Program-made: the position numbers and the translations under genes
Notes under the pieces: model-generated
The model's input: the letters and a program-made list of their open reading frames with translations, nothing else
The model's database searches: none
What the model was told of the DNA's origin: nothing
Shown here: positions 28,314 through 43,500 of the stretch, piece after piece
Numbering within the stretch: the first letter of the stretch is position 1
Layout of the letters: every line of letters begins with the position of its first letter
Assembly: GCA_014904845.1 (NCBI GenBank)
Contig: MU119448.1
Coordinates: forward strand, 22,045-86,044
Source of the DNA: Acephala macrosclerotiorum
Lineage: Eukaryota > Ascomycota > Leotiomycetes > Helotiales > Mollisiaceae
Direction: 5' to 3'
Length of the DNA stretch: 64,000 nt

Positions 28314-30575
28314 TCAGAAGATTGTCAGCGGTTCTTTCTTAAGCTCAAATTGTTTTCTGCAGGTATCAACTGCCTTTATCACCTTATTCCATTCGTCTAT
28401 TGTCTCATAAGCCAATTTGAGGCAATTCTTACAGGTGCGAAAATATCCGAGTCTCACAAAGGCGCTAGAATCTACCTTTGATATTCCAAGCAGTAATCCA
28501 TGTAGCTGGTCGTCAGCTTCCCCTATAATGATACAAGTAACAGTGGCCTCGAACGATTCCTGGAAGTCATGCGGGGCCCTTCGCACGCTATACCTGGGCT
28601 CGGCCTAATTTGTGGGTGGGATTTCCCAAGATTCGAGAACTGTATCGGGGATGACCCACAACTCTTGCGCGTCGATTATGACTGATGAGAGAGCATAGGT
28701 GCGCTCTCCGTCCTTTGTGACTAAGCATGTCAATTTTAATTCCGCCCTTGGAACGGTCATAGTAATTGAGCTACCATTGCTGACACTTCCGTACACATTT
28801 TTGCCGGACTTCGGGACGACCGTATCTTGAAACGAAGTAATCAAAGGCTTGAATGAAGTAGAGTCGGCTCCAAAGGCCATCCCATCTCCTTGGACAGATG
28901 CCCACGACCAAGAGGGTGCAACATATTCTCCAGACACAAACCCTTCGGTTCTTAGCGTCCTCCAGCACAGTTCACGAGTCCAGCACAGGTCAGGAGCCAA
29001 GCTAGGCTTCCAAAGCCCTGCTAGATACCGCGGCTTGGGTTCTGGAAGCTTTCTGGCAAAACTGTCAGCCAATCCGCTGAGCGCTGGCAGCCTATCACAC
29101 TCTCTCGTGAGTCTTAATGGGAAGTAGTCGCGAACAAGATCGCGCCAACGCTTCCACGGCTGTAAGTCGCGCGTATAAGACTCAAGGGTCTTATTCCATT
29201 GTCTAATTCTCTTGAATAGGTCCTTGGTTCCTTTAAAGATGGTTGTCGAACCCACAATCTTCTCGGCCCTGAGCCCATGTCTGCATTCATACAGAACTCC
29301 AAGCTCCTCTAACCCCGTGAAATGGATCACCCGCGCCGATAGCGTATTCTCCTGGAACACCCACGCTCGTGATGCGACCGGCTTTGTGGTCGACATCGGG
29401 GCTTGCGTCTTTCGAGATGAACGAAAGCCGGGCGCCACTGACCACGCTGCTTTATCCGCATCAAGCCGCTGTATACGGACTTCAACTTTCTTTCCATTCT
29501 TGTCTGCGTCTAGGAATGTGATAGGGACAGGTTTATGCTTAGATACCTGCTTCCCTAGAAAATGCTCCGAGCTCTCCGCCGAGCATGTTCCGGAAATGGT
29601 AATATATGCGTTACTATAATAGTCGCATATACGCCCGGATTTACTCGTCTAGTCCTTATCGTCGCCTTGGATAATGCACAGAAAGTCAATCCAGAGATGT
29701 TTGAAGTCTAGCGCGCGATACACCGTTACGGCGTCTTGGAATGTGGCCGGCAGTTTTGCATAATCAATGTTCTCCATCCTCTCTTGCAGATTGCCACGAC
29801 TGGTTACAAAGGAAGGCGGACCGCCCTCCTTCGGCTCTCCCTAACAGTAGCTGAGTGCCGCGTAGTTGACTACTTGGGGTGCATTCACCGTCTCGATCAG
29901 CCGTACCGCTTTCTCCCTAATCTCAAGCAACCTTGTTGGGAGCGTTGGCGGAGGTGCCGGCGTAGGACATTCGACGTGCCTCGTACACTCTCGAATAGCA
30001 TCTCTAACGAATTCGATGCTCTCCTCAACCCCCGTCTCTACCCGGGTTGCTAGGCTAGGCCACGCCTCTATTCTACCTTCCTCTGGGTTATACACCACAA
30101 ACGTGCGCGATGTTTCTATTACTGGGACTGATTCCATTTGATGAGGTGCCGCAGGCTTATCGTACGACAACATAGGGAAGAACTCCAGCGTCATATGCCC
30201 CGTTCCTCCATTTTTCGGCCCGCGGATATGAACATAAGACTTTCCAATGTTATAGACATCTCTCCAATCTTTGTTTTCCTCGTGATTCCAGACTTCGAGG
30301 ATGAGCTTGCAGAATTTGCAGCCTTTTCCTGCAGCTGTAACTAGATTGGCTTGGTTTCCTGTTCTGACCTGTGGAAGGTTTGGATGCTCTAGCTCGCTAC
30401 AGTCGTTGCACAAGCCACAAGGCATGTTTGTGGGAGATTCTTCTTGAAGTTTATCAGGCCTTATCTGCGTCTTGTGGTGTAGTCGATGTAGGATTGGAAA
30501 GTCCGGCGATCTAGCTTGAGGGCATACAAGTCGGCCTAGCCGCAACTTAGCAGGGCGCTTAAGGGTCTCTAGCAT
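28314..30575 (-). pseudogene. HET-domain gene inactivated by RIP-type stops
   Basis: A single frame runs from ATG 30575 (or 30425) to the TAG at 28314 and is broken only by three TAG codons at 29841-29843, 29649-29651 and 28605-28607. The first two fall where Trp is expected (NYAALSYC then GEPKE; GDDKD then TSKSG), so TGG became TAG; the third fits CAG to TAG. The protein has a Cys-rich start (MPCGLCNDC), the HET core (LWIDFLCIIQ), VASRAWVFQENTLSARVIHF and YVAPSWSWASVQGD, all typical of HET proteins. About 750 codons. It is probably not functional, unless stops are read through. Confidence 0.85.
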
Positions 30576-30639
30576 GCGGGATTTTAGCAAATGCGAGAGG
30601 ATAGGTTCGATGCTGGCTTGAATGCGAATTTGGATATAG

Positions 30640-31260
30640 GCTTTGTTACGTTCAAAGTTTTGTTTGTGATTTTCGTGTTTGTACGAACTACGCTAAGTTT
30701 GAAATCATTTATTATTAAACTGGATATGGCACATTACGCACTACAGTATTTTTAGCCACTGTTGACCTTTATACCTAAGACTTTATAAAAACAATTATAG
30801 CGTAAATTTTATAAAAACGTGCGAGATCGTTTTATTTTAATTAAAAATCGTTAATTGTTTTAACGCGTAATATTAATTCGCGTAGTAATTTGATATAAAT
30901 TTGTACATTGTAATAATTATAAAATTAAAAACGATTTTTTGTAAAATAATAAAATTTTAAAATTCAAATATTATTTTTTAATATATAATAAAAAAAATAA
31001 AAATTTAATAATAAAACTATAATAAAAAAATTATATTATATTATAAAAAAATACTTTTTTGTAAATTAAATATAAAAACAATAATATATATTTGATTATT
31101 TAATAAAAAAAATTAAAAATATTTAAAATTAATTATAAAATATAATTTATAAAATATTATAAAAAATTTTAAAATATATATAAATTTTAAAATTTATAAA
31201 ATTAAAATACTTATTATTTTTTCCAATATATTATAACGAATTTAATTTATTTATTCTCGT
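30640..31260 (+). repeat. dispersed upstream repeat, RIP-mutated copy
   Basis: Aligns by eye along its length with 49300-49960: CTTTATACCTAAGACTTTAT corresponds to CTTTATGCCTAAGGCCTTAT, and the following AT-rich half shares the order ATACTTTTT, AAATATAAAAAC and AATATTTATTATTTTTT-like blocks. Almost all differences are C-to-T or G-to-A. It is upstream of the HET pseudogene. Confidence 0.72.
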
Positions 31261-31536
31261 ATCAATTATTTTTACTCGTAGTATTCACGTATAAAAATTA
31301 GAATTTACATTGATTACGATCTAATCGTAGCGAGTAATAAAAAGTTACATAATCTAAGAACATTTTTCGATCATATAATATAAATTGATTATTGAATTAT
31401 TAATTAATACAAAAATCCAAATTAATTATTTATTTATTTTAAAACTAAATTTATACTTTTATTTTTTTACATATTTTTTAATAATTTAATTTAAATTCAA
31501 ATTTCGACGTTTTTTTCGATTTGACTTTTTATAATA

Positions 31537-31618
<82 letters not shown>

Positions 31619-31989
31619 AAGATTATTACAAAGTTCAAATTATAATTACAAATTTGAAACAAATTAAATTTGAAATTATTCTTTTTACAAGTAATTCGCA
31701 AGACTCGTAAAAAATCGTAATTATATAATCTTCAAAATATATCCGTAATACACGCAAAATTTTTATTAGATTTCAAATCACATATAATTGTTTATTAAAC
31801 AATTACAATATATTATTTATATAAAAACATTTAAACAATCAATTTCTATAATTAAACATATTATTATCACTTTTTTTTTCCAATTTTCAATTGTTTTCCA
31901 ATACACAAAAATAAATATTATTTTACTATTATTAATATATTTTTTCAATTTCTATATATTTACCAATTTTATTTTATTTAATTCAACGT
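30790..31989. repeat. AT-rich block with long poly-A tract
   Basis: RIP-mutated sequence between the HET pseudogene and the NLR pseudogene. At 31538-31616 there is an almost pure A tract interrupted once by TTTT. I see no gene here. Confidence 0.7.
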
Positions 31990-32800
31990 CTATCGATATA
32001 TAGTTTTAATCGCGTCGTACTTATTTTAACTCTTTAAAAAAAATGCGAAATTATTTATACTTATAAAAATCTAAAAATACTCTTTATCGAAAACTTTCTC
32101 TATAAATCGTAACGTCTTCCAATAAAGCGATTCGACCTCGTTATACTTATTCTAGTACTCAAAAAAAAAATACGAAATTATTTATATTTGTAAAAATCTA
32201 AAAATACTTTTTGTCGAAAACTTTTTTTTTAAATCGCAACGTTTTTCAATCGAGTAACTCAACCGCGTCGTATTTACTCTAACGCTCTAAAACTTCTACG
32301 AGATTATTCATACTTGTAAAAATCTAAAAATACTCCTTACTAAAAACCTTCTCTATGTACCGTAGCGTCTCCTAGTAAAGCGACTCGACCGCGTCGTACT
32401 TGTTCTAACTATTTAAAAAAAAAGCGAAATTGTTCATACTCGCAAAAATATTAAAATACTCCTTACCAAAAACCTTCTCTATAAACCGTAGCGTCTCCCG
32501 ATAAAGCGACTCGATCGCGTCGTACTTGCCCTGACTCTTTAAAAATAGTGCGAGATTGTTTATACTTGTAAAAGTATCAAAGTACTCTTTGCCGAGAACT
32601 TTCTCTCTGAGTCGTAGCGTCTCCCGATAAAGCGACTCGGCCGCGTCGTACTTACTTTGACTCTTTAAGAGAAGGGCAAGACTGTTCATACTTATAAGAG
32701 TATCAGGATACTCCTTGCCGAGGACCTTCTCTCTGAGCCGCAGCGTCTCCCGGCAGAGCGGCTCGGCCGCATCGTACTTGCCTCTAAACTCATAAACAAA
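31990..32800 (-). repeat. tandem TPR-coding repeats of about 126 bp
   Basis: About six or seven units encoding 42-residue TPRs (core KYDAAEPLCRETLRLREKVL). Units near 32800 are nearly normal in base composition, and units toward 31990 are progressively AT-rich. Confidence 0.8.
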
Positions 32801-34400
32801 GTCTACCATTGTCATACTATCCAGCGTATCACTGTGCTCTTGACCGAGAATCCTCTTTCTAACTTTCATTGCTTGAACCGACGTCTTCTCCGCCTCTACC
32901 CCTTTCCCCATTCTCTATGCGTACTATGCTGCCTTGTATAATATTAAAGCCCAGTCCCTTAATGAGTCTTAGTCCTCCGGCTGCTGTGCTGCTACTGATT
33001 GCGCGTGCGGGAAAAGCGCTTGACACGTTACCCAATTCGTGTACTCTCCGGTTGGAAGCTCTACATCAAGATTTCTAATAAACTGCTGTTTCCATCTCTC
33101 TTGCTGCTCGTGAGCTTTAAGCCATTCTCGCGTGGCTAACTGCACCAGTCCATGCATTTCGAAGGTTGCGCCGTCTATATTAATAGAGATAAAGAAGTAA
33201 CTTCGTAGAATTAAGATATCGTCTTCAAACCTATCACTTACACTAGACTTTGATGTATCATCTTCATTGTCGTCACCATAATCAGCGCTTTGCATCTAGT
33301 CTTGCTCCGAGTCTTTCCGCTCGCTTCGACTTCGAAGTAGAGTCTCGGGAATTCCTTGCCGATCAAAAAAGCTCATAAGTAACAATAAATCAACAGCTGA
33401 TAGTCTGATTTCACGAATATGATCGAATGAGATCTGCCATGTAATAATGATAGAATTCTCCGTCTCTTGATCTCGACGGAATTGTTCGCCTTCGTAATTA
33501 AAGAGACTCGTTCTCTTGCGATTACTTTTTCGAAAGTCTTAGAGGTAGTATTGGACAGAATAGCGCGGCACTCTTTGGAAGATATATGCAATAGCTTGAA
33601 CGATGGCAAGCGGTATAAACTCGAGTGCCGCGGCGAGCTCGGCAATATCGCCGCCGTCGCACCCTTTTAACTTCTTTCCAAAAAGTGCTAACCCATTTTC
33701 TTTACTCATTGGTTCGATTGCAATAATATCGCGCTATTCAACCAATTTGATAGCCACATGTTTGCTCCGTATTGTTATTAGAATCGATTTATTCGAGTAC
33801 TGCGGCAAGTATAATACGAGCGGTCGCAAGTTTCCACTGCCTATGCCGTCCATTGGCGCATCCTGACCGGTAGTTTGAGCTTTGAGGAGAAAGTTAGCAT
33901 TATCCATATTGTCAAGTATAAGAATCCACTGTCTATTCACGTTGCGCAGCCAGTCGTGTACAAACTGGAATATATTGGCCTATGGATTCTGCCGCCTAGA
34001 GATCTTAACGCAATTTGCAATATCTCGAATGCCCTACTCGAACCGGGCCGCGTTGCTTGCGTGGACCCAAAAAACCCACGTCTCCGGCGACGAGTCTCGG
34101 ATTCGGTACGCATATTCGATGGCGAGTTGTGACTTGCTTCGCAACGGTTAGCGGTGTACATTTACGCCAAGGTTTATGCTTACTCGACGCCGCCCAGGCC
34201 AACAAGCGCGGTTCAAGATCCTGAGGCGGCGCATTTCTGGTGGATCTGATGAAGTATTGTCTTTCGCTCGACGAAGTCTGTGTCGCGACTAAAGGGTATA
34301 ACGACCGACGGGTTCGGTGGGGTCTCTGGTCGCTCTAGGGAGAGCCCGTCATTAGCGCGGGTCAGCTTGGACTTTGCAACTTACCGGGAAAGGCGTAGTG

Positions 34401-34472
34401 ATAGAACTCAGTATTAACCGGACCGTTGATTATTGCGGCTTGCAAGTCGGAGTTGGCGGGGCCAAAAGATAT
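34401..34472 (-). other. putative amyloid-signalling motif in NLR exon 1
   Basis: Residues 5-28 of the NLR pseudogene. It shares Phe-Gly, Asn-Ser, Gln-Ala, Ile-Ile-Asn-Gly and Val at matching spacing with the effector tail at 35461-35532: 11 identities in 24 ungapped positions. Location at the very N-terminus, directly before the NB-ARC domain, is typical of such motifs. Confidence 0.7.
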
Positions 34473-34662
34473 GGCGGATGCCATCGCAGCAGAGTGGTTT
34501 GCGACGAGGTGTTGATAGCAGTTGAGTGTGTTAATGTCGTTCGCTATTCTTCAGTCGCAATAACTGAGGGACTTCCAATCAGATTGCACGGCGCCTCCAA
34601 AGCTTTAGCTCCTGGTTTGGGTCTTCGTTTCCCGCCCGCTTTCTGTCATCAACAAATAAAAA

Positions 34663-35544
34663 ATGATCGATCCTCTCAGTATTACAGCTAGTGTCGTGGG
34701 TATTGTTGTGCCGATTTTGCATGGCACACGACTACTTCTAGAAGATCTGCAGCAGCTCAAAGATGCACCAAAAGCCGTCAAGCGCCTGGTAGAAGATGTG
34801 CACTCTGTCGACACGGCACTCGAATTGCTCAAAAGTATAGAGAAGAAAGAATGGAGCTTACTTGGCGCAGACGTAGCTAAGCAATCGAAGACGACGATTA
34901 GCAGTAGCACGCAAGTATGCAACCTTTTCAGGGCTGATCTCCAGAAGTGGACTAGACACTCAGAAGATGGAAAGCTAGCATGGCTGGACCGAGCAAATGT
35001 GGGATTCTTCAAGAAAGACCAAATTAAAGCCATGTCGAAGCAGCTTCAAAACTGTAAGCTGACCATTAACCTCATCGTCGGCGTTGCAACTTTGTTGGTA
35101 GCTCCAGTCCGCCTATGCTAGAGGATGGACTAACCTTCCTACAGGTACAGCTCTGTCCGTAATAGCCATATCACGGAGAAGATAAAGAATACAATAGCTA
35201 CAAAGCAGGACGAGGTCAAAGGTGCTATTACTACGGCGGATAAGCAGCTGATAGTGTTAGAGAACAAAGTGGAAGAGATGAACCTCAGCGACGATGATAA
35301 GGAAGTGGCTACACCGGTAGAAGGCAAAACTGAGGCATTGCAACAACTTGAAAAAGAACTCAAAGGGGTGAAAGCGTCTCAGAAGCTGCTAAGTGAACTG
35401 CTATCAAAGTCGCAGGAAGATGCTGTTGCGAAAGCCGCGGGGGATCAGAGCGGTTCGACGGTGACATTCGGTGCTCAGAACTCGGGCTTTCAAGCTGGGA
35501 TCATCAACGGCGGAGTTAGTGGAACAAGTTTTGGAGGAAAATGA
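34663..35544 (+). CDS. PigL_N/HeLo-like effector with C-terminal amyloid-type motif
   Basis: Two exons, 34663-35093 and 35145-35544, with a 51-nt intron (GTTGGT, GGACTAACC branch, CTACAG), encode 276 aa. The N-terminal half (MIDPLSITASVVGIVVPILH, DAPKAVKRLVEDVHSVDTAL, LQKWTRHSEDGKLAWLDRAN) belongs to the fungal STAND N-terminal domain family I know as PigL_N, related to SesA/HeLo-type helical domains. A charged coiled-coil region follows, and the last about 25 residues (FGAQNSGFQAGIINGGVSG) form a Gly/Asn-rich motif. Proteins of this design are thought to be membrane-acting cell-death executors switched on by an NLR through amyloid templating. The divergent NLR pseudogene carries the matching motif. 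The frame is intact. Confidence 0.85.
35461..35532 (+). other. putative amyloid-signalling motif in effector tail
   Basis: The 24 residues starting at Val-Thr-Phe-Gly, near the C-terminus. V-x-F-G-x-x-N recalls the core of RHIM/HRAM-like motifs. It aligns without gaps to the NLR motif at 34401-34472. Confidence 0.65.
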
Positions 35545-36269: not shown

Positions 36270-37248
36270 CTATAATATGCGTCTCCGTTTAGTAACTGGG
36301 CTGCTATTCAGGCTTGAGGAAGTAGAAGAACCAGCTTGCAACCTCCACAACTTCAACAGACGGAACGTGGGTCCGGATACAGTCTTCCCAGACTTGTTTG
36401 TGAAGACGTAGCTACCAAACCAAGCTTGAACGGCGACCTTATCACCCGCGGTGAAACGAGAGGCATCTATGTCGTCGCCGTCTTGGTCGTCGTCCGTGGT
36501 CGTTCCGTCGAAGGTAGAGGGAAAGGGGTCCCCGGGAGTGAAAGAAGGTGAGGTAATGTCCGACTCGGCCACCTTAAGACGCAAGGGATTCGTAACAGTG
36601 AGGTTCCTATCCCGCTGACGTATCAGGACCTTCAAGACCTCAAGAGACCTCTCATCCACTTGTAATTGTAAGGAAAACTCAGGCTTGTCCGGGTTGAAAT
36701 TGTTTACGGCACTCTTGAGTGTAGTAAACTGACCGAGCTGGCCTAGGAGGATAATACCCAAGGGAGCAGGTTCTTCATCATCGTATATGTCGTCTGGTTC
36801 ATTATGAGCCAGCCACTTTGTTCCCGCTCCACTGAAAGCCTCCCACGAAAGCTTCGGATCGAGACGCTCGAGGTTCCCAACATATACCCACTGGCCCCGA
36901 AAGTACGGAAGGTTTGGGACGCCGTCAAAGTTCAAGGCTGGAGGAGGAGTCGCTGGTCTCTTACTCGGAGATGCATATGATGAGGGAGTGAAGGCCGTTT
37001 GAGGCGTATGTGGATCGATAGAATTGGATTGATATGGGCTAGCGTAGTTACTGTCCGAGCGAGCGGTTATAGGACTGCGTGGAATCTAAACAGTTAATAT
37101 ATAGAAAGAGCTAGGCAAGAGGGAAACTTGCAGAGAATTGGTCAGTAATATGAACTGTATCGTCCTCATTACCGGCCTCCTCCCAACCCGGTGAACCGTC
37201 CGATGTAACCGTAGTCCTTCCGCCAGGCGGCTTACGATTACGAGCCAT
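36270..37248 (-). CDS. Helitron-associated protein, possible OB-fold ssDNA-binding factor
   Basis: Exons 37248-37132 and 37085-36270 give 310 aa. The 46-nt intron appears to be a GC-AG intron (GCAAGT...GTTTAG); it is the only junction found that keeps phase, and exon 2 has no ATG of its own in frame. The N-terminal 90 residues are Ser/Pro-rich and probably disordered. The body contains FRGQWVYVGNLERL, PEFSLQLQVDERSLEVLKVL and GDKVAVQAWFGSYVFTNKSG, a pattern of beta strands that suggests an OB fold; the end KRRRIL may be a nuclear localisation signal. It lies just downstream of the Helitron Rep-helicase in the same orientation. The ssDNA-binding role is inference. Confidence 0.6.
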
Positions 37249-37580
37249 TGCAGCGGTGTAGCTGTGATGAAGTGAAAGAATCAAAGTAGTGGAAAGATGC
37301 AAAATACTTTCTAAAAGAAACAGTGATTGAGAAAGAAAGAGGCATATGGGGAGTAAAAGCCGACGTTCTAGAGATAGAGACAATGAAAAAGCAACACATG
37401 AAACAGTGGGCAATGATACTGAGGTAGGTGGTCCTAGCTCTAAGTGTATCAGTACGCTCGCAACAAATGCCTAGAAGGTAAAGAAAAGCAATATATTACA
37501 TATCTGGCAAGACAAACCTAACTACGAGGCAGATATGATACATGGAATGAAGTGAAGAGTAGTACTCAGGGTTAAGAGAG

Positions 37581-40500
37581 CTATCCCATTGGATCATAGG
37601 GCTCCGAACTCTCCCACAGACCGATTGTCTGTTGTTCTAGAGTCTCAAGCCGGGACAGCTCAATCCGGAGATCCGGGTGAGGGGTAAACGAAACGTCCTC
37701 AAGCGTGATCGGTTCTCGTAACCAAACCCCTGACAACGATTTGACCCTGCCAAGCTGGACGTTGATCGAGGTCCATTTGCCATGCTGATCAACGCCGCGC
37801 TGCTTACCAAAGACGAGATCGAGAATAAGCCTGTCGAACGTACTACCCTGGCTCTTGTAATCAGTGAAGGCGAATCCAAGCGTTAGTGGAACCTGATGTC
37901 GGTAAAAGGACAGTCCTGGTAGGTTTGGGATCTGACCGCTCATATGTACCGGGAAGACGGGGATAAGACCGTCGGGAATATTAGAAAAAGATAGGTTGTG
38001 GTCGTGTGCAGGTCGAACGAGGACACACATGAGAGGAGCGGTACAGAGTATAAACTGACTATCAAGTTCCATCCACGAAGCTATCGACATAGTTAGCAAA
38101 TAGAGTCATCGAGAATAATATCTATCTTTATACCTTGTACACTAGCATCTAAGATAACTTCCTCGGCAGTACCTCTCATGCCATTGACCAAGCCAGCATA
38201 TGTATTCGTGTTCTGTTGCAGCATAATAGGCATACTCTTCGTGAAGGCAAAGAAGCCAGGTCCCTTTAGATACCCCTCTTCACCGACCTGGTAGATCATC
38301 CGGAGCAACGTGAGAAGGTCCAAATTCGTGCCCGTAGGTGCATCGTGTTTAGCGGGGAAGAGATAGATCTTCTGAGCTTGTTTCTTGGCAAACGCTCGGA
38401 GATGATGAACGTTAGCTTCCTCGCGGATGCGATTAAGTCTAATAATGGCCCTCTCAAGTGGAGTCTCTCCATTAGCAATTCTGTTCTCAGTAGTACACGA
38501 GTTGAGAGTAGCAACGTCGTCCTCAGTCAGAGTAGCAGATCGCGCTCTCTGTAGGAGTTCTTGGAATACCAGATCTTCTGCCTGACGCATCTGCTCCGTG
38601 AGGAATACCACGTGAGTAAATCGACACCAGATAGATCTTCTTGATTGTAAGACAGCAATATCGCTGATAAGCTGGCTCCATATCGCATGACCACGGACTG
38701 GCCTAAACTGGTTGAAATCCCCTAGAAATATGACGACAAGTAGACCACCAAAAACCGTATCGAACGCTCGATTCAGATCCCAAATAGCATTACATCGATC
38801 GTTGATCTGGACCAGATTCTCGACACTAACCATACTGATCTCGTCGAGGATAAAGATCTTCTTATGAGAGAGTCTTGACCTCGTCGCTTGACGTACGGGC
38901 TGGTTTCCATTCTTGCCATATCCAAGGGCAGAGTAGTAAGTAGCGCCGTTGATGTTCGCAGCAGCCGCACCGATCGAAGCAGTGAGTAGAACATCGTCAT
39001 GCTTTTGTAGTATGGAGAGACCGAACATAAAAGCCTTAATGAGGTGGGTCTTACCAACCCCGCCAATACCGCCAAGGTAGAGTAAAAACTGATCACGGAC
39101 GGAAATGATCCGAATAGGGTGCAGAATCCGGAGGATTAGAGCCCTGATAATCAACCGCTGTTTCTTGTTGAGAGAGTACTGGCTAGTGACTAGAGTCAAC
39201 AAATTGTCGACAGACGGATCGGCTTCAAACGAAGCCCGTAGGTATTGTAGAGACGCCATAGATTCAGTGCTATAACCAAGAACCGGAACGAGAGCAGCTT
39301 CCCGGCTGTTTGTATCCAGCTGAGAAGAGACGTTCGCATCATCATTAGCGTCGTCGAGATCTGATCTGTCTTGATCCTTAAAAGCCTTTAACTCCCTAAA
39401 CCAAGTCTTGACTAGGGCGGTAGGCGCGAACTGGGCTCCAAGCAACCGAGGGTTGCGGGAAAACCGTAACGAAGATAGGCCATCGGCGGCAACACCTGGG
39501 AAAGCCAGAGCAGCCTGGAGCAGATTGCTCTCTGTTGGTCGAAGCGTAACAAAGTCCACGTCCACATTAGCCTCGTCATCCTCGTTATAGACGTCTTGGT
39601 CTATAGTCTCAAGATAGTCATCAAACTCTATGCCACGCTCCTTCCTATCCCGATCAGCAGCCTCCTTGCTCCGCCGGAGGAGCACGACGTTCTCTGATAG
39701 CTGGACCAGGTAAGGAGAGAGAGACGGGAGGACGAAGTTCCATAGCCACGTATTTCTGTACGGTGCAGCACGGAGAGATTCAAGATGGTAGCTATGGAGA
39801 TTCTGAAGCTTATTCCACGGGTGGAACAGACCTAAAAGGACCTCATGTATCTCGTCTTGAGTCCTTAGTGTAGTATCGAGAGTGTCAGTATCTTGCTCTG
39901 ACATAGACGTAAAACTGCCACATAGAGAGGGAGTCTTTAACGACTCTAGAGAGCTGACAGAGACCTGGATATGAGTAGTATGCAATGGGTGAGAAGAATC
40001 GAAGGGAAAAAGGAATGCTCGATTTTTAGCGCCATTGAACGTCTGCACAAAGATCTGGGCCGTATACTCGTAGAAACACAAGTGAGCAAGTCTGGCGCCC
40101 CGGTGCTCGTAGTTCTCATAAATTGACGGGCGGCGAGTACGGCCATCAAAGTTCACGTACTGATCCGCGGATTCCGCAACGTCCTCATCAGTAGACTTTT
40201 CAAGTAAGCTATTCAGAACCCTTCGAATGTTTGTTTTAACCCAATGAAAATTGATCGTCACAGACTTGTCGCTCTTTGGAATATACGCAGACGGTTGTCC
40301 AAGTAGGAAGTGAGCCACTGCCGGAGCGCCGATCTCCACGTCTCTTGTGAAGCGATTATAGGCCTTTAACGCGAACTTGGACATATCAAGCGGTTCCGGC
40401 GCCGGCAAGTCACTGTCCTCAGCGGCAGCCGCTTCAGCCGTCTCCTGGGCTTTCTTCAGCACGGCCGCAGCGAGTACAAGCTGACCGCGATCCACCTGAG

Positions 40501-43500
40501 CTTTGGTTGCATAGTTCGTCATGTAGTAGATGGCAGAAAGGACCTTGGGAGACGAAGGGGTGAAATTGACATCGTGGTTACACCGTATAGCAGATGCAAT
40601 AACAGGGTTATACTTATTTAAGTATTGGTGATTCCTCTCCATCCGGATATAGCCCTCTTCTGTGACCATAGACTTGGGAACAAGCGATCTTGGAAACAAG
40701 AACCGACAAATCTGTAAGGGTAACTGTCTAGGAATCTCTAAACGCTGTAAAGGCTCGCCGATGTCTGTTGCTATTCCTTGGCACTGGACAATCGGAGCAG
40801 GATCTGCCCTTATACGTGGACGTCGAGTGTTCTGATATTTAGTACAAGTCTTGCCATGAGTATGCATCTGGTTCTGGGCCGCTACATTGTTCGAGTCGAT
40901 GTCAAGAGCCTCTTGAAATTCAGACGGAGTCATATCGTTCGGTATAGTAAAAACAGAAGTGCCAGGAGTTTCTGATGTAAACCGTTGACCAAGAGCAAGA
41001 TCCACCGTCTCCCTAATTATCGAACGGAGGTAAGAGAGTACCCGGTCCTTGAATTCAGGGTCCGAAAGAAGCCTCTGATGTAGGTTCGCAGCGCCAAAAT
41101 TGCCCGCAAGCCAGGCAAATCCGTGGAGATGTAGTATCATCCGCGTTGTCGACTCGACTATTCCAAAATGAGAAGTCACCGTGCCAAAGATCCCCGCCTC
41201 CTTAGAAAGCGTCTTAAAGAAGCACGTAAAGAAGGAGATGACAACAACATGGAAGAACTGAGCGACGAGACTCGGGTTCTTAATCGTTAGTTGCAAGAGT
41301 TTCGACTTGATACCCGGCTCGTCTACTGAGATCTCTTCCCCGGCAAGTCTAACCACAAAGACATTGCCAATGTCTTTCGGGTTAAGGGTAAACCAGATAA
41401 GTGGAATCCCAAGACGGGCGATCTTGCCGAATATCAGGTTCCTAAACTTCATCTTTTCTCCAAACGACTCCGGGTTGAACGACGAGATGATTCTCATATT
41501 AGTAATCAGACTGTGGATGGCAGGGTTCGAGATCTTCTTCCCGTCGGTAAATTCTTGTGCCGCACGTTGGAGATCATCACCTGACAGCTTAGAAAGTTCG
41601 TATGTAGCTTTAGCCCAATAGCCGTTCCTGACCTGAACGTGATTCCCGAAAGAAGCTTGCCGTATCAAGATTAAGTCGTATAAATAAAACATGAATATAT
41701 AGTATTGAGAGAAACTGTAAAGATTAGAACGACACGATAGTCAGAAGTGAACACCCACAGCAAGGAATAGTGGAGCATAGTATATCTCGCAAAGGCCTTG
41801 AGAGATACCTCCTCCGGACGGTCGCTATTCGCATCGCCAAGATGGCCGCCTATGCCAAACGGAAACAGAGTAAAGAACGCTGCCGTGAAGTAGTCCGGGT
41901 CTGTAAAGGCATTCATTGCGGGTAAGTGCTGTGTCGTCTTGTAAGAGATATGCGGCAAGCGAGAATTATCGTTTGGTGCGCCCTCCCAATCACTTTGGAC
42001 ATCAACAGCATCGTCTTCTCCTAGCTCGGAACGGTCAGGATCCTGCTCTTGGAGGATGGCCTGGAGGCTTGCCAAAGTGGCCGGGATGGAGTGGAGATCT
42101 TGACCGTGAAAGTCGGAGAAAAAGGATCGGCTGAGAATGCTGCCGGGCTCGGCGTCCCTCTCCTCTGCATCTAGCTCGTTCTCAAACAGTCCATTCTGTA
42201 AGGTCGTAGTATAGCTTTCCCGTTCGTCTTCCACCGGGGTATCCGTCGAGCCTGGCTCGGGACCTAATGTCATAAAGGCGTCTCGGATCTCCTGAGGAAT
42301 GTGGTAATCAGGCCAAGAGTTCAGAACAGAGTAGTCGACGACCACCGACTTGTAGTCGGGATTATTGGCACACAGCCATAGCAAGGCATTCACGACCTTC
42401 GCTTTGTCGACAGAGCAAAACCGCGCAAGGTTCTCCTCCGACGGCGGGGTTCCACGGTCCCAGCTGACGGTGATCGTTGTATGATCTCGCAACCTTGCGG
42501 CTGGTAAGATCTTCAGAAGCTCACTCGGATCCTGCCTTACGGCGACAGAATGACCCCGACTGCCTCTATAACTGATCCCACTCTTAGCACCCGAGGTAAG
42601 TTTTAAGAATATGCCAACAACATGAGCCCGTGCTATAAAAGCCTCTTCGACAGTATTGAGATTCTTCAGAGCCTCTGAGTAGTCTTGACAAAACAGGCAA
42701 TTGACAAAGTTACCAGCCGAGAGCGGAGGGATAGCCCGTTTTACAATCGCCGAGTTACAGGTCGTACACAGGCCGACCATCTCGTCTCTGACGGCGCAAC
42801 AGTCAGGGGCCGTCTTCGTCCTCTGAAGGAAGTACTGTAGGTCGTCGGTTTGAAGGCTAAGCCTAACCATCTCGTCCTCCTGGAACAAGCCCCCACAAAT
42901 CCCACACGGTAAACGTCTCGAGGCATCCGAGATCGCCCTCTGGTAATCCCTCATACACCTCATCTGTTTATAAGAGATGATCTCCTCTAGAAAATCGGCC
43001 GAAGCCTGCTTCATATACTGGTACTCCTCATCTAGGAAAGATGGGAGAACACCATTGAAGGCAACGATACGTCCTTCCGTGAGTAATTTCTGCTGGGCCT
43101 TCTGAGCTTGAAGGGCAGCTTTGTGGCGCTGAATAGCCTGTCTACCAGCCTCATCCCGCTTCTCCCGATCGCGACGATGAACCTCCTCTTGTAGATCTCG
43201 TACAGCTTGCCTCTGAACGATTCCGAGAGACCTCTGATTCCTTTGCCTTTCCACCTGTTCTCGAAGTAGCGTATCCTCCGCCTTCCTCGCCTGGATAGCA
43301 AACTCCCGTTCCCGCTTCTCGGCTCGCCGCAACTCCAGCTCTTGATCACGCAAGACCCTCTTATGCTCCGCCTCTTTAAACTTTGCCAGCTTGATTTCGG
43401 GCGTCCCTCTCTCTACCGCGCTGGACTCGTCCCTCGAAAGAAAGTAAGTCTCTCTTCCTCTTCTCTTCTATACTTAACAGCCTACGCTCCTCAGCAAGCT

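Follow-up and report, generated by a model that had tools for sequence, protein, structure and literature searches.

Gene pair at the locus

The window (the whole stretch of 64,000 nucleotides of the Acephala macrosclerotiorum genome that was analysed) contained two divergent genes, and the intergenic region common to both, between their start codons, was 178 bp long (34485..34662). The plus-strand gene was intact and encoded an executioner-type effector with a HeLo-like domain. Its exon 1 (34663..35093) was followed by a 51-bp GT...AG intron (35094..35144) after nt 431 of the coding sequence, and exon 2 (35145..35544) ran from a helical region into a C-terminal motif tail and the stop codon; an alternative intron acceptor 6 bp downstream also kept the frame open. 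The Pfam scan identified the protein as PigL_N (PF17111, E = 1.3e-19), a domain that is termed HeLo-like in PMC9815663. The effector type given in the preliminary description was thus confirmed, and with a complete spliced model of 276 aa and its conserved columns kept (see below) the effector was intact, as had been claimed.

The minus-strand gene was a pseudogene of an NB-ARC/TPR receptor (NLR). Exon 1 (34385..34484, minus strand; ATG at 34484, GT donor at 34384) encoded MASAISFGPANSDLQAAIINGPVNTEFYHYAFP, and this N-terminus was 65% identical to that of an intact paralogue on another contig of the same genome (contig C1). Intron 1 (34335..34384, minus strand; 50 bp, after CDS nt 100) could be aligned with intron 1 of the C1 gene. 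The decayed rest (32788..34334, minus strand) comprised a linker, the NB-ARC region, a DUF7779 remnant and the first TPR, and it was followed by a tandem array of TPR units (32011..32787, minus strand; 126-bp unit, 6.2 copies). DNA identity to the C1 gene was 78% across the first 1705 of 2080 bases searched, and it was by this identity only that the NB-ARC region was recognised, since its piece 33734-33979 alone had no Pfam match. The Pfam scan found TPR matches in this copy, and the DUF7779 remnant was found at E = 7.7e-4, below the cut-off. In the frame of the C1 paralogue, nine in-frame stops were counted before the TPR array begins. The sensor had been called dead, which is correct for the window locus; elsewhere in the genome, on contig C1, a sensor with this motif is still intact.

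Decay of the receptor gene

Comparison of the window NLR with its paralogue showed 182 C-to-T plus G-to-A changes versus 93 reverse changes, and CpA was the most affected context in both directions, mildly so. Across six successive units of the TPR array the GC content dropped from 53% to 25-26%, a RIP-like gradient, and the RIP composite index was 1.26 to 1.38 within 32100-32699. In a DNA search with 32405-34484 the array matched only itself and the upstream part matched the C1 gene, so RIP triggered by the internal TPR repeats was the likely cause of the decay. The gradient began at the TPR repeats and ran into an adjoining, extremely AT-rich block (approximately 30720-32300), which had long poly-A tracts and, in one 300-base step, a GC content as low as 4%.

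RIP is able to break a gene within a few sexual generations. It may be that the whole locus is dying, with an NLR recently killed by RIP and an effector intact only for want of decay time, and we give this reading slightly less than an even chance. The speed of RIP, the excess of RIP-type changes and the index of the array speak for it, and the evidence comes from one genome. On the other hand, the window effector looks conserved, as it retained all 17 invariant columns and 43 of the 45 that were nearly invariant (60 of the 62 together), and its end branch was 0.048 (tree median 0.075) versus 0.34 for the window NLR (median 0.15), which leaves the death of the NLR undated. Because RIP is so fast, conservation of the effector is no proof that it has long outlived the receptor. 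In the effector tree, built from the window copy and 30 of the 120 listed effectors, the window copy grouped with Halenospora (SH-aLRT 93), and in the 25-row tree of NLRs the window copy had no supported placement.

A motif shared by the two genes

The effector ended in ...TFGAQNSGFQAGIINGGVSGTSFGGK, which included an amyloid-type motif, TFGAQNSGFQAGIINGGVSGTSFG (35464..35535, plus strand), and the NLR pseudogene carried the motif SFGPANSDLQAAIINGPVNTEFYH close to its start (34398..34469, minus strand). Ungapped alignment of these 24-residue segments (34469-34398 on the minus strand and 35464-35535 on the plus strand) gave 11 of 24 identities, so the positions and the number of identities first described were borne out. 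Between short peptides with a high content of Gly, Asn and Ser some resemblance may arise by chance, and this had to be considered. The best ungapped score was 59, and when the shuffled-sequence check was run, 0 of 10,000 shuffles of the NLR exon reached it (maximum 52). By this test chance similarity was ruled out, and with the recurrence in other species and the linkage described below its probability is negligible.

The preliminary description in fact understated the match, because the motif copy in the pseudogene has drifted. The intact C1 NLR carried FGSNNSGLEAGTINGPV and its own effector FGAQNSGFQAGTINGGV, which was a closer match than that of the window pair.

An intact sister pair and other copies in the genome

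Contig C1 contained a second divergent pair in which NLR and effector were both intact, and its start-to-start distance was 186 bp, versus 179 bp at the window locus. The C1 effector had 276 aa, was identical to the public protein P0015 and ended in TTVTFGAQNSGFQAGTINGGVSGITFGSK. We read the C1 NLR, with the N-terminus MASISFGSNNSGLEAGTINGPVNTEF, as a protein of 729 aa with two introns, the first after nt 97 and the second inside the glycine codon preceding the P-loop lysine. Its public model, P0121, had 720 aa, matched our reading fully at residues 1-60 and scored 30.1 bits for NB-ARC (cut-off 23.5) and 203.7 bits for TPR_10. P0121 also scored 325 bits (cut-off 300) for the bacterial NCBIfam model of FxSxx-COOH system TPR protein, and it was named putative kinesin in public records.

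The window and C1 effectors were 73% identical (dN 0.152, dS 0.603), and their tails were 80% identical over 30 aa. At this divergence the pairs count as old paralogues. With its matching motif, the intact C1 NLR could activate both executioners in trans, in which case the orphan effector of the window would have been retained for this. The very similar tails are in favour of such activation, and so is a published case of one NLR with two effectors, C. globosum PNT1 with HELLP and SBP (PMC5485727). The activation is putative, however, and the age of the two paralogous pairs stands against it, so we regard this explanation as doubtful.

The AlphaFold model of the C1 effector, made from a 34-sequence alignment with this effector as first row, had a mean pLDDT of 75.1 and was mainly helical, with helices up to residue 241 and a tail of low confidence without helix. 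Comparison of the model with solved structures gave no fold match at E<=0.001, and no HeLo or MLKL chain was among the matches listed; a sequence search of solved structures with the effector gave nothing meaningful.

A six-frame search of the genome with the N-terminal peptide of the C1 NLR gave four places at E<=10 (best candidates scored), namely the C1 NLR itself, the window exon, a relic on contig C258 (E = 0.0097) and the C1 effector tail (E = 0.07). The relic (C258:32825-32902) was a third PP-type NLR, with a motif exon that had an in-frame stop and then a fragment of the linker exon. A further effector homologue, more distant at 31% identity and interrupted by three in-frame stops, lay at C204:38174-38677. 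At C251:48777-50234 we found a weak match to the PigL_N part of the effector (E = 0.0096) directly upstream of an NB-ARC on the same strand, an arrangement which suggests the fused form of a HeLo-like NLR. Neither of the two single-peptide genome searches found a further effector with the motif, for instance an SBP-type lipase, and a distant PP lipase could escape them. Two other NLRs with the common linker exon, on contigs C129 and C110, had no such motif in the stretches read; by eye their N-termini looked SesA-like and patatin-like.

Recurrence and linkage in other species

The effector search gave 207 homologues at E<=0.001, of which 120 were listed, and the motif core was present within the last 60 residues in 85 of the 95 listed homologues of at least 246 aa. 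A profile was built from 87 effector tails, with the window and C1 tails omitted, and run on 23 NLR homologues plus the window exon. It matched 23 of these 24 NLR sequences at E<=1.3e-6, and the motif of the window NLR scored 22.9 bits; P0142 was weak (E = 0.16 for the protein, 0.0014 for the best domain). The best domain started within the first 8 residues in 22 of the 24, and at residue 40 in P0142 and residue 109 in P0137. As the 23 homologues had been chosen by similarity of their first 60 residues to the C1 NLR, this result shows effector-to-NLR similarity and is no unbiased census.

The presence of NLR and effector on equal-sized contigs was used as a proxy for linkage, and some of these contigs were megabases long, so sharing is not the same as adjacency. 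Among the organisms listed with both proteins, taken from 120 of the 207 effectors, 10 of 14 had the two on equal-sized contigs, and the chance expectation was 0.8 (P about 4e-13, with an assumed 30-Mb genome). The ten were Acephala, Botrytis fragariae, Rhexocercosporidium, Leptodontidium MPI-SDFR-AT-0119, Hyaloscypha finlandica, Tricladium, Cadophora MPI-SDFR-AT-0126, Seiridium, Halenospora and Pseudogymnoascus VKM F-4517, and in the last of these the two genes had consecutive locus tags (V498_04837 and V498_04838). Acephala supplied the query, and without it the count was 9 of 13. No equal-sized contig was found in Pseudogymnoascus 23342-1-I1, Mollisia, Cadophora M221 and Rutstroemia, nor was there a shared contig in Aaosphaeria (P0040, P0214), whose NLR came only from the P0142 search described below; it lies outside the 14 and would be a fifth miss. 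In other species the motif was thus present at NLR N-termini and effector C-termini alike, which supports the pairing that had been expected of it.

Co-variation of motif subtypes within pairs did not go beyond chance and gave no further support, with 6 matches at two positions in 9 pairs (p = 0.21); these were 9 of the 10 same-contig pairs, and Seiridium was omitted for its tail without the core. The mirror correlation of NLR and effector distances (r = 0.68, 45 comparisons) was set aside, because shared species history can explain it. By their public names several of the receptors were annotated as kinesin and several of the effectors as pigment-cluster proteins.

Class of the motif

The Pfam library contains models of the sigma motif (NACHT_sigma) and of the HET-s motif. 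Neither NACHT_sigma nor the HET-s motif model (HRAM / HET-s class) matched any of 24 motif peptides at E<=10, and the only recurring model was Ses_B, with 20 of 24 peptides at E<=10 (best E 7.3e-8). Six of the 24 were of canonical PP type, so Ses_B was present in at least 14 of the 18 derived peptides. The motif peptide of the window NLR alone had no Pfam match, and the window effector scored 11.1 bits for Ses_B at residues 249-266, under the cut-off of 23.2. In a scan of eight relatives Ses_B appeared in four, P0142 (21.1), P0117 (17.3), P0082 (15.3) and P0116 (13.8), all below the same cut-off, and was absent from P0121 (scanned as a whole protein), P0143, P0029 and P0075. Ses_B corresponds to the PP motif according to PMC8086366.

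A search with P0142 gave 99 NLR rows, five of them with Ses_B in the database. The NLRs of these 99 rows commonly read SFGPxNxGxQVGQNYGxINTEFHLPPERPETPP, which was collinear with SFGPANSDLQAAIINGPVNTEF...PERPETPP of the window, and the window motif had the same columns and flanks as the motif in Ses_B-bearing NLRs. A canonical PP profile was built from 35 distinct strict-core PP motifs of the NLRs fetched with P0142. It scored at least 5 bits in 82 of 121 effectors and 20 of 23 NLR sequences, and after shuffling in 0 of 121 whole proteins, 0 of 23 NLRs and 8 of 1210 tails. The strict core NxGxQxGxN was rare (1 of 95 effector tails and 1 of 23 NLR homologues), and 60 of the 95 effector tails had a shifted core, NxGxQxGxxN. 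The window core, NSGFQAGIIN, likewise had its asparagine one place later than the strict core.

The motif is classed here as a derived relative of PP (pseudopalindromic, RHIM-like), which is its nearest class, and not as a canonical member, because the strict core was rare and the Ses_B scores were below the cut-off. In the preliminary description it could not be placed firmly in a named class and was perhaps of a less-known one, and this no longer holds. An unknown class, sigma, HRAM and PUASM (pattern FxGxGxQxxGxGxF with a PNP_UDP effector, PMC9815663) were set aside for derived PP on the grounds of Ses_B, the PP profile and the alignment. The common peptide might also be a conventional docking or oligomerisation motif rather than an amyloid one, and in the literature examined we found no fibril evidence for the derived motif. 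But it could be aligned, column for column, with the PP motifs that NLRs of its type carry, and the PP regions of P. anserina form prions (PMC7885112), which makes a docking motif improbable.

Comparison with known systems

The closest likeness was to HELLP/PNT1 (Podospora anserina Pa_5_8070/Pa_5_8060; Chaetomium globosum hellp-sbp-pnt1), in which the NB-ARC/TPR receptor likewise has the motif near residues 1-31 and the adjacent gene encodes a HeLo-like effector of 271-276 aa with a C-terminal motif. In P. anserina a single intron interrupts each of the two genes, of 47 bp in hellp (ORF nt 429-475; 271 aa encoded) and of 54 bp in pnt1 (ORF nt 95-148), according to PMC7885112. With a single effector intron near nt 430 and a first NLR intron near nt 95-100, the intron positions of the pairs studied here agreed with the published ones to within two codons. 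PNT1(1-31) and HELLP(214-271) were described as forming prions, with cross-conversion and cell death (PMC7885112), and in C. globosum one NLR, PNT1, drives two effectors, HELLP and SBP (PMC5485727). Unlike these systems, the core here is NxGxQxGxxN instead of NxGxQxGxN, the window NLR is dead, the intact C1 NLR has a second intron, and an SBP-type lipase was not found in the single-peptide searches.

The divergent arrangement of NLR and effector was also like that of HET-S/NWD2 of P. anserina, where nwd2 in het-s strains is a precedent for a dead sensor beside an intact effector. But that effector has a HeLo domain (PF14479) and the HET-s motif twice, its receptor is of NACHT/WD type, and nwd2 was broken by a transposon scar, unlike the RIP-like change of the window NLR. 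NLR/effector pairs with a common terminal motif are also known from sigma (SESA/SESB/HET-eN) and PUASM; unlike in those systems, no sigma model was among the matches of the 24 motif peptides, and the pattern and the effector type of PUASM were not seen here.

Our literature search, which mostly did not extend to subscription papers, found nothing that dealt with this locus or with Leotiomycete PP pairs, and the main text of PMC9815663, supplements aside, contains neither "Leotiomycetes" nor "Helotiales". We make no claim that this family of pairs is unpublished.

Proposed mechanism

We consider the locus to be a divergent NLR/executioner pair of the hellp/pnt1 type, whose motif is a derived PP and whose receptor is dead, with a probability of about 0.87. 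The interpretation as an amyloid-signalling pair, which the preliminary description had proposed, was supported by the recurrence of the motif at both protein ends, the contig co-residence, the second intact pair and the hellp/pnt1-like gene structure. For the steps of the pathway, that is ligand binding, oligomerisation, templating and membrane action, we infer the following from the HELLP/PNT1 and HET-S/NWD2 literature. A working receptor, as at C1, would bind its ligand, probably via the TPRs, and would then oligomerise, so that the N-terminal motifs stack into a small amyloid seed. This seed would template the same fold in the effector tail, and the HeLo-like domain, thereby released, would attack the cell's own membrane. 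As the window receptor is dead through stop codons and RIP-like mutation, the window effector would need another source of seeds before it could act, and the simplest candidates are the intact C1 receptor and another effector copy that is already amyloid.

Beyond this pathway, the orphan executioner may have been kept for a new use, though we think this rather unlikely. It could serve a trans-response with C1, in which one sensor commands two unlinked killers, or could have turned into a self-propagating prion-type allorecognition protein, as HET-s did in strains with a dead nwd2. The shifted-palindrome motif would then form a PP subclass of its own, without cross-seeding to canonical PP.

Under the hellp/pnt1-type reading, pathways of the PP/HELLP/PNT1 kind also include a family with representatives in Leotiomycetes and, by organism names, in other ascomycetes. 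The pathway is concealed in public annotation by kinesin and pigment-cluster names, and Pfam's PP model scores the shifted core below its cut-off. With the pathway present twice in one natural genome, once intact and once without its receptor, trans-activation, insulation of parallel pathways and exaptation after receptor loss become testable. The locus is a natural half-broken duplicate of interest and no new principle.

Other features of the window

The split ORFs at 28605-30692 (minus strand) resemble by eye what we take to be a HET-domain gene, and the two of them that were scanned had no Pfam match at E<=0.01. Further ORFs at 36270-38105 likewise had no Pfam match at E<=0.01. Beyond the effector, at 38093-43467 (minus strand), there was a Helitron-type element, with Helitron_like_N, PIF1 helicase and DUF6570 in two ORFs in different frames.
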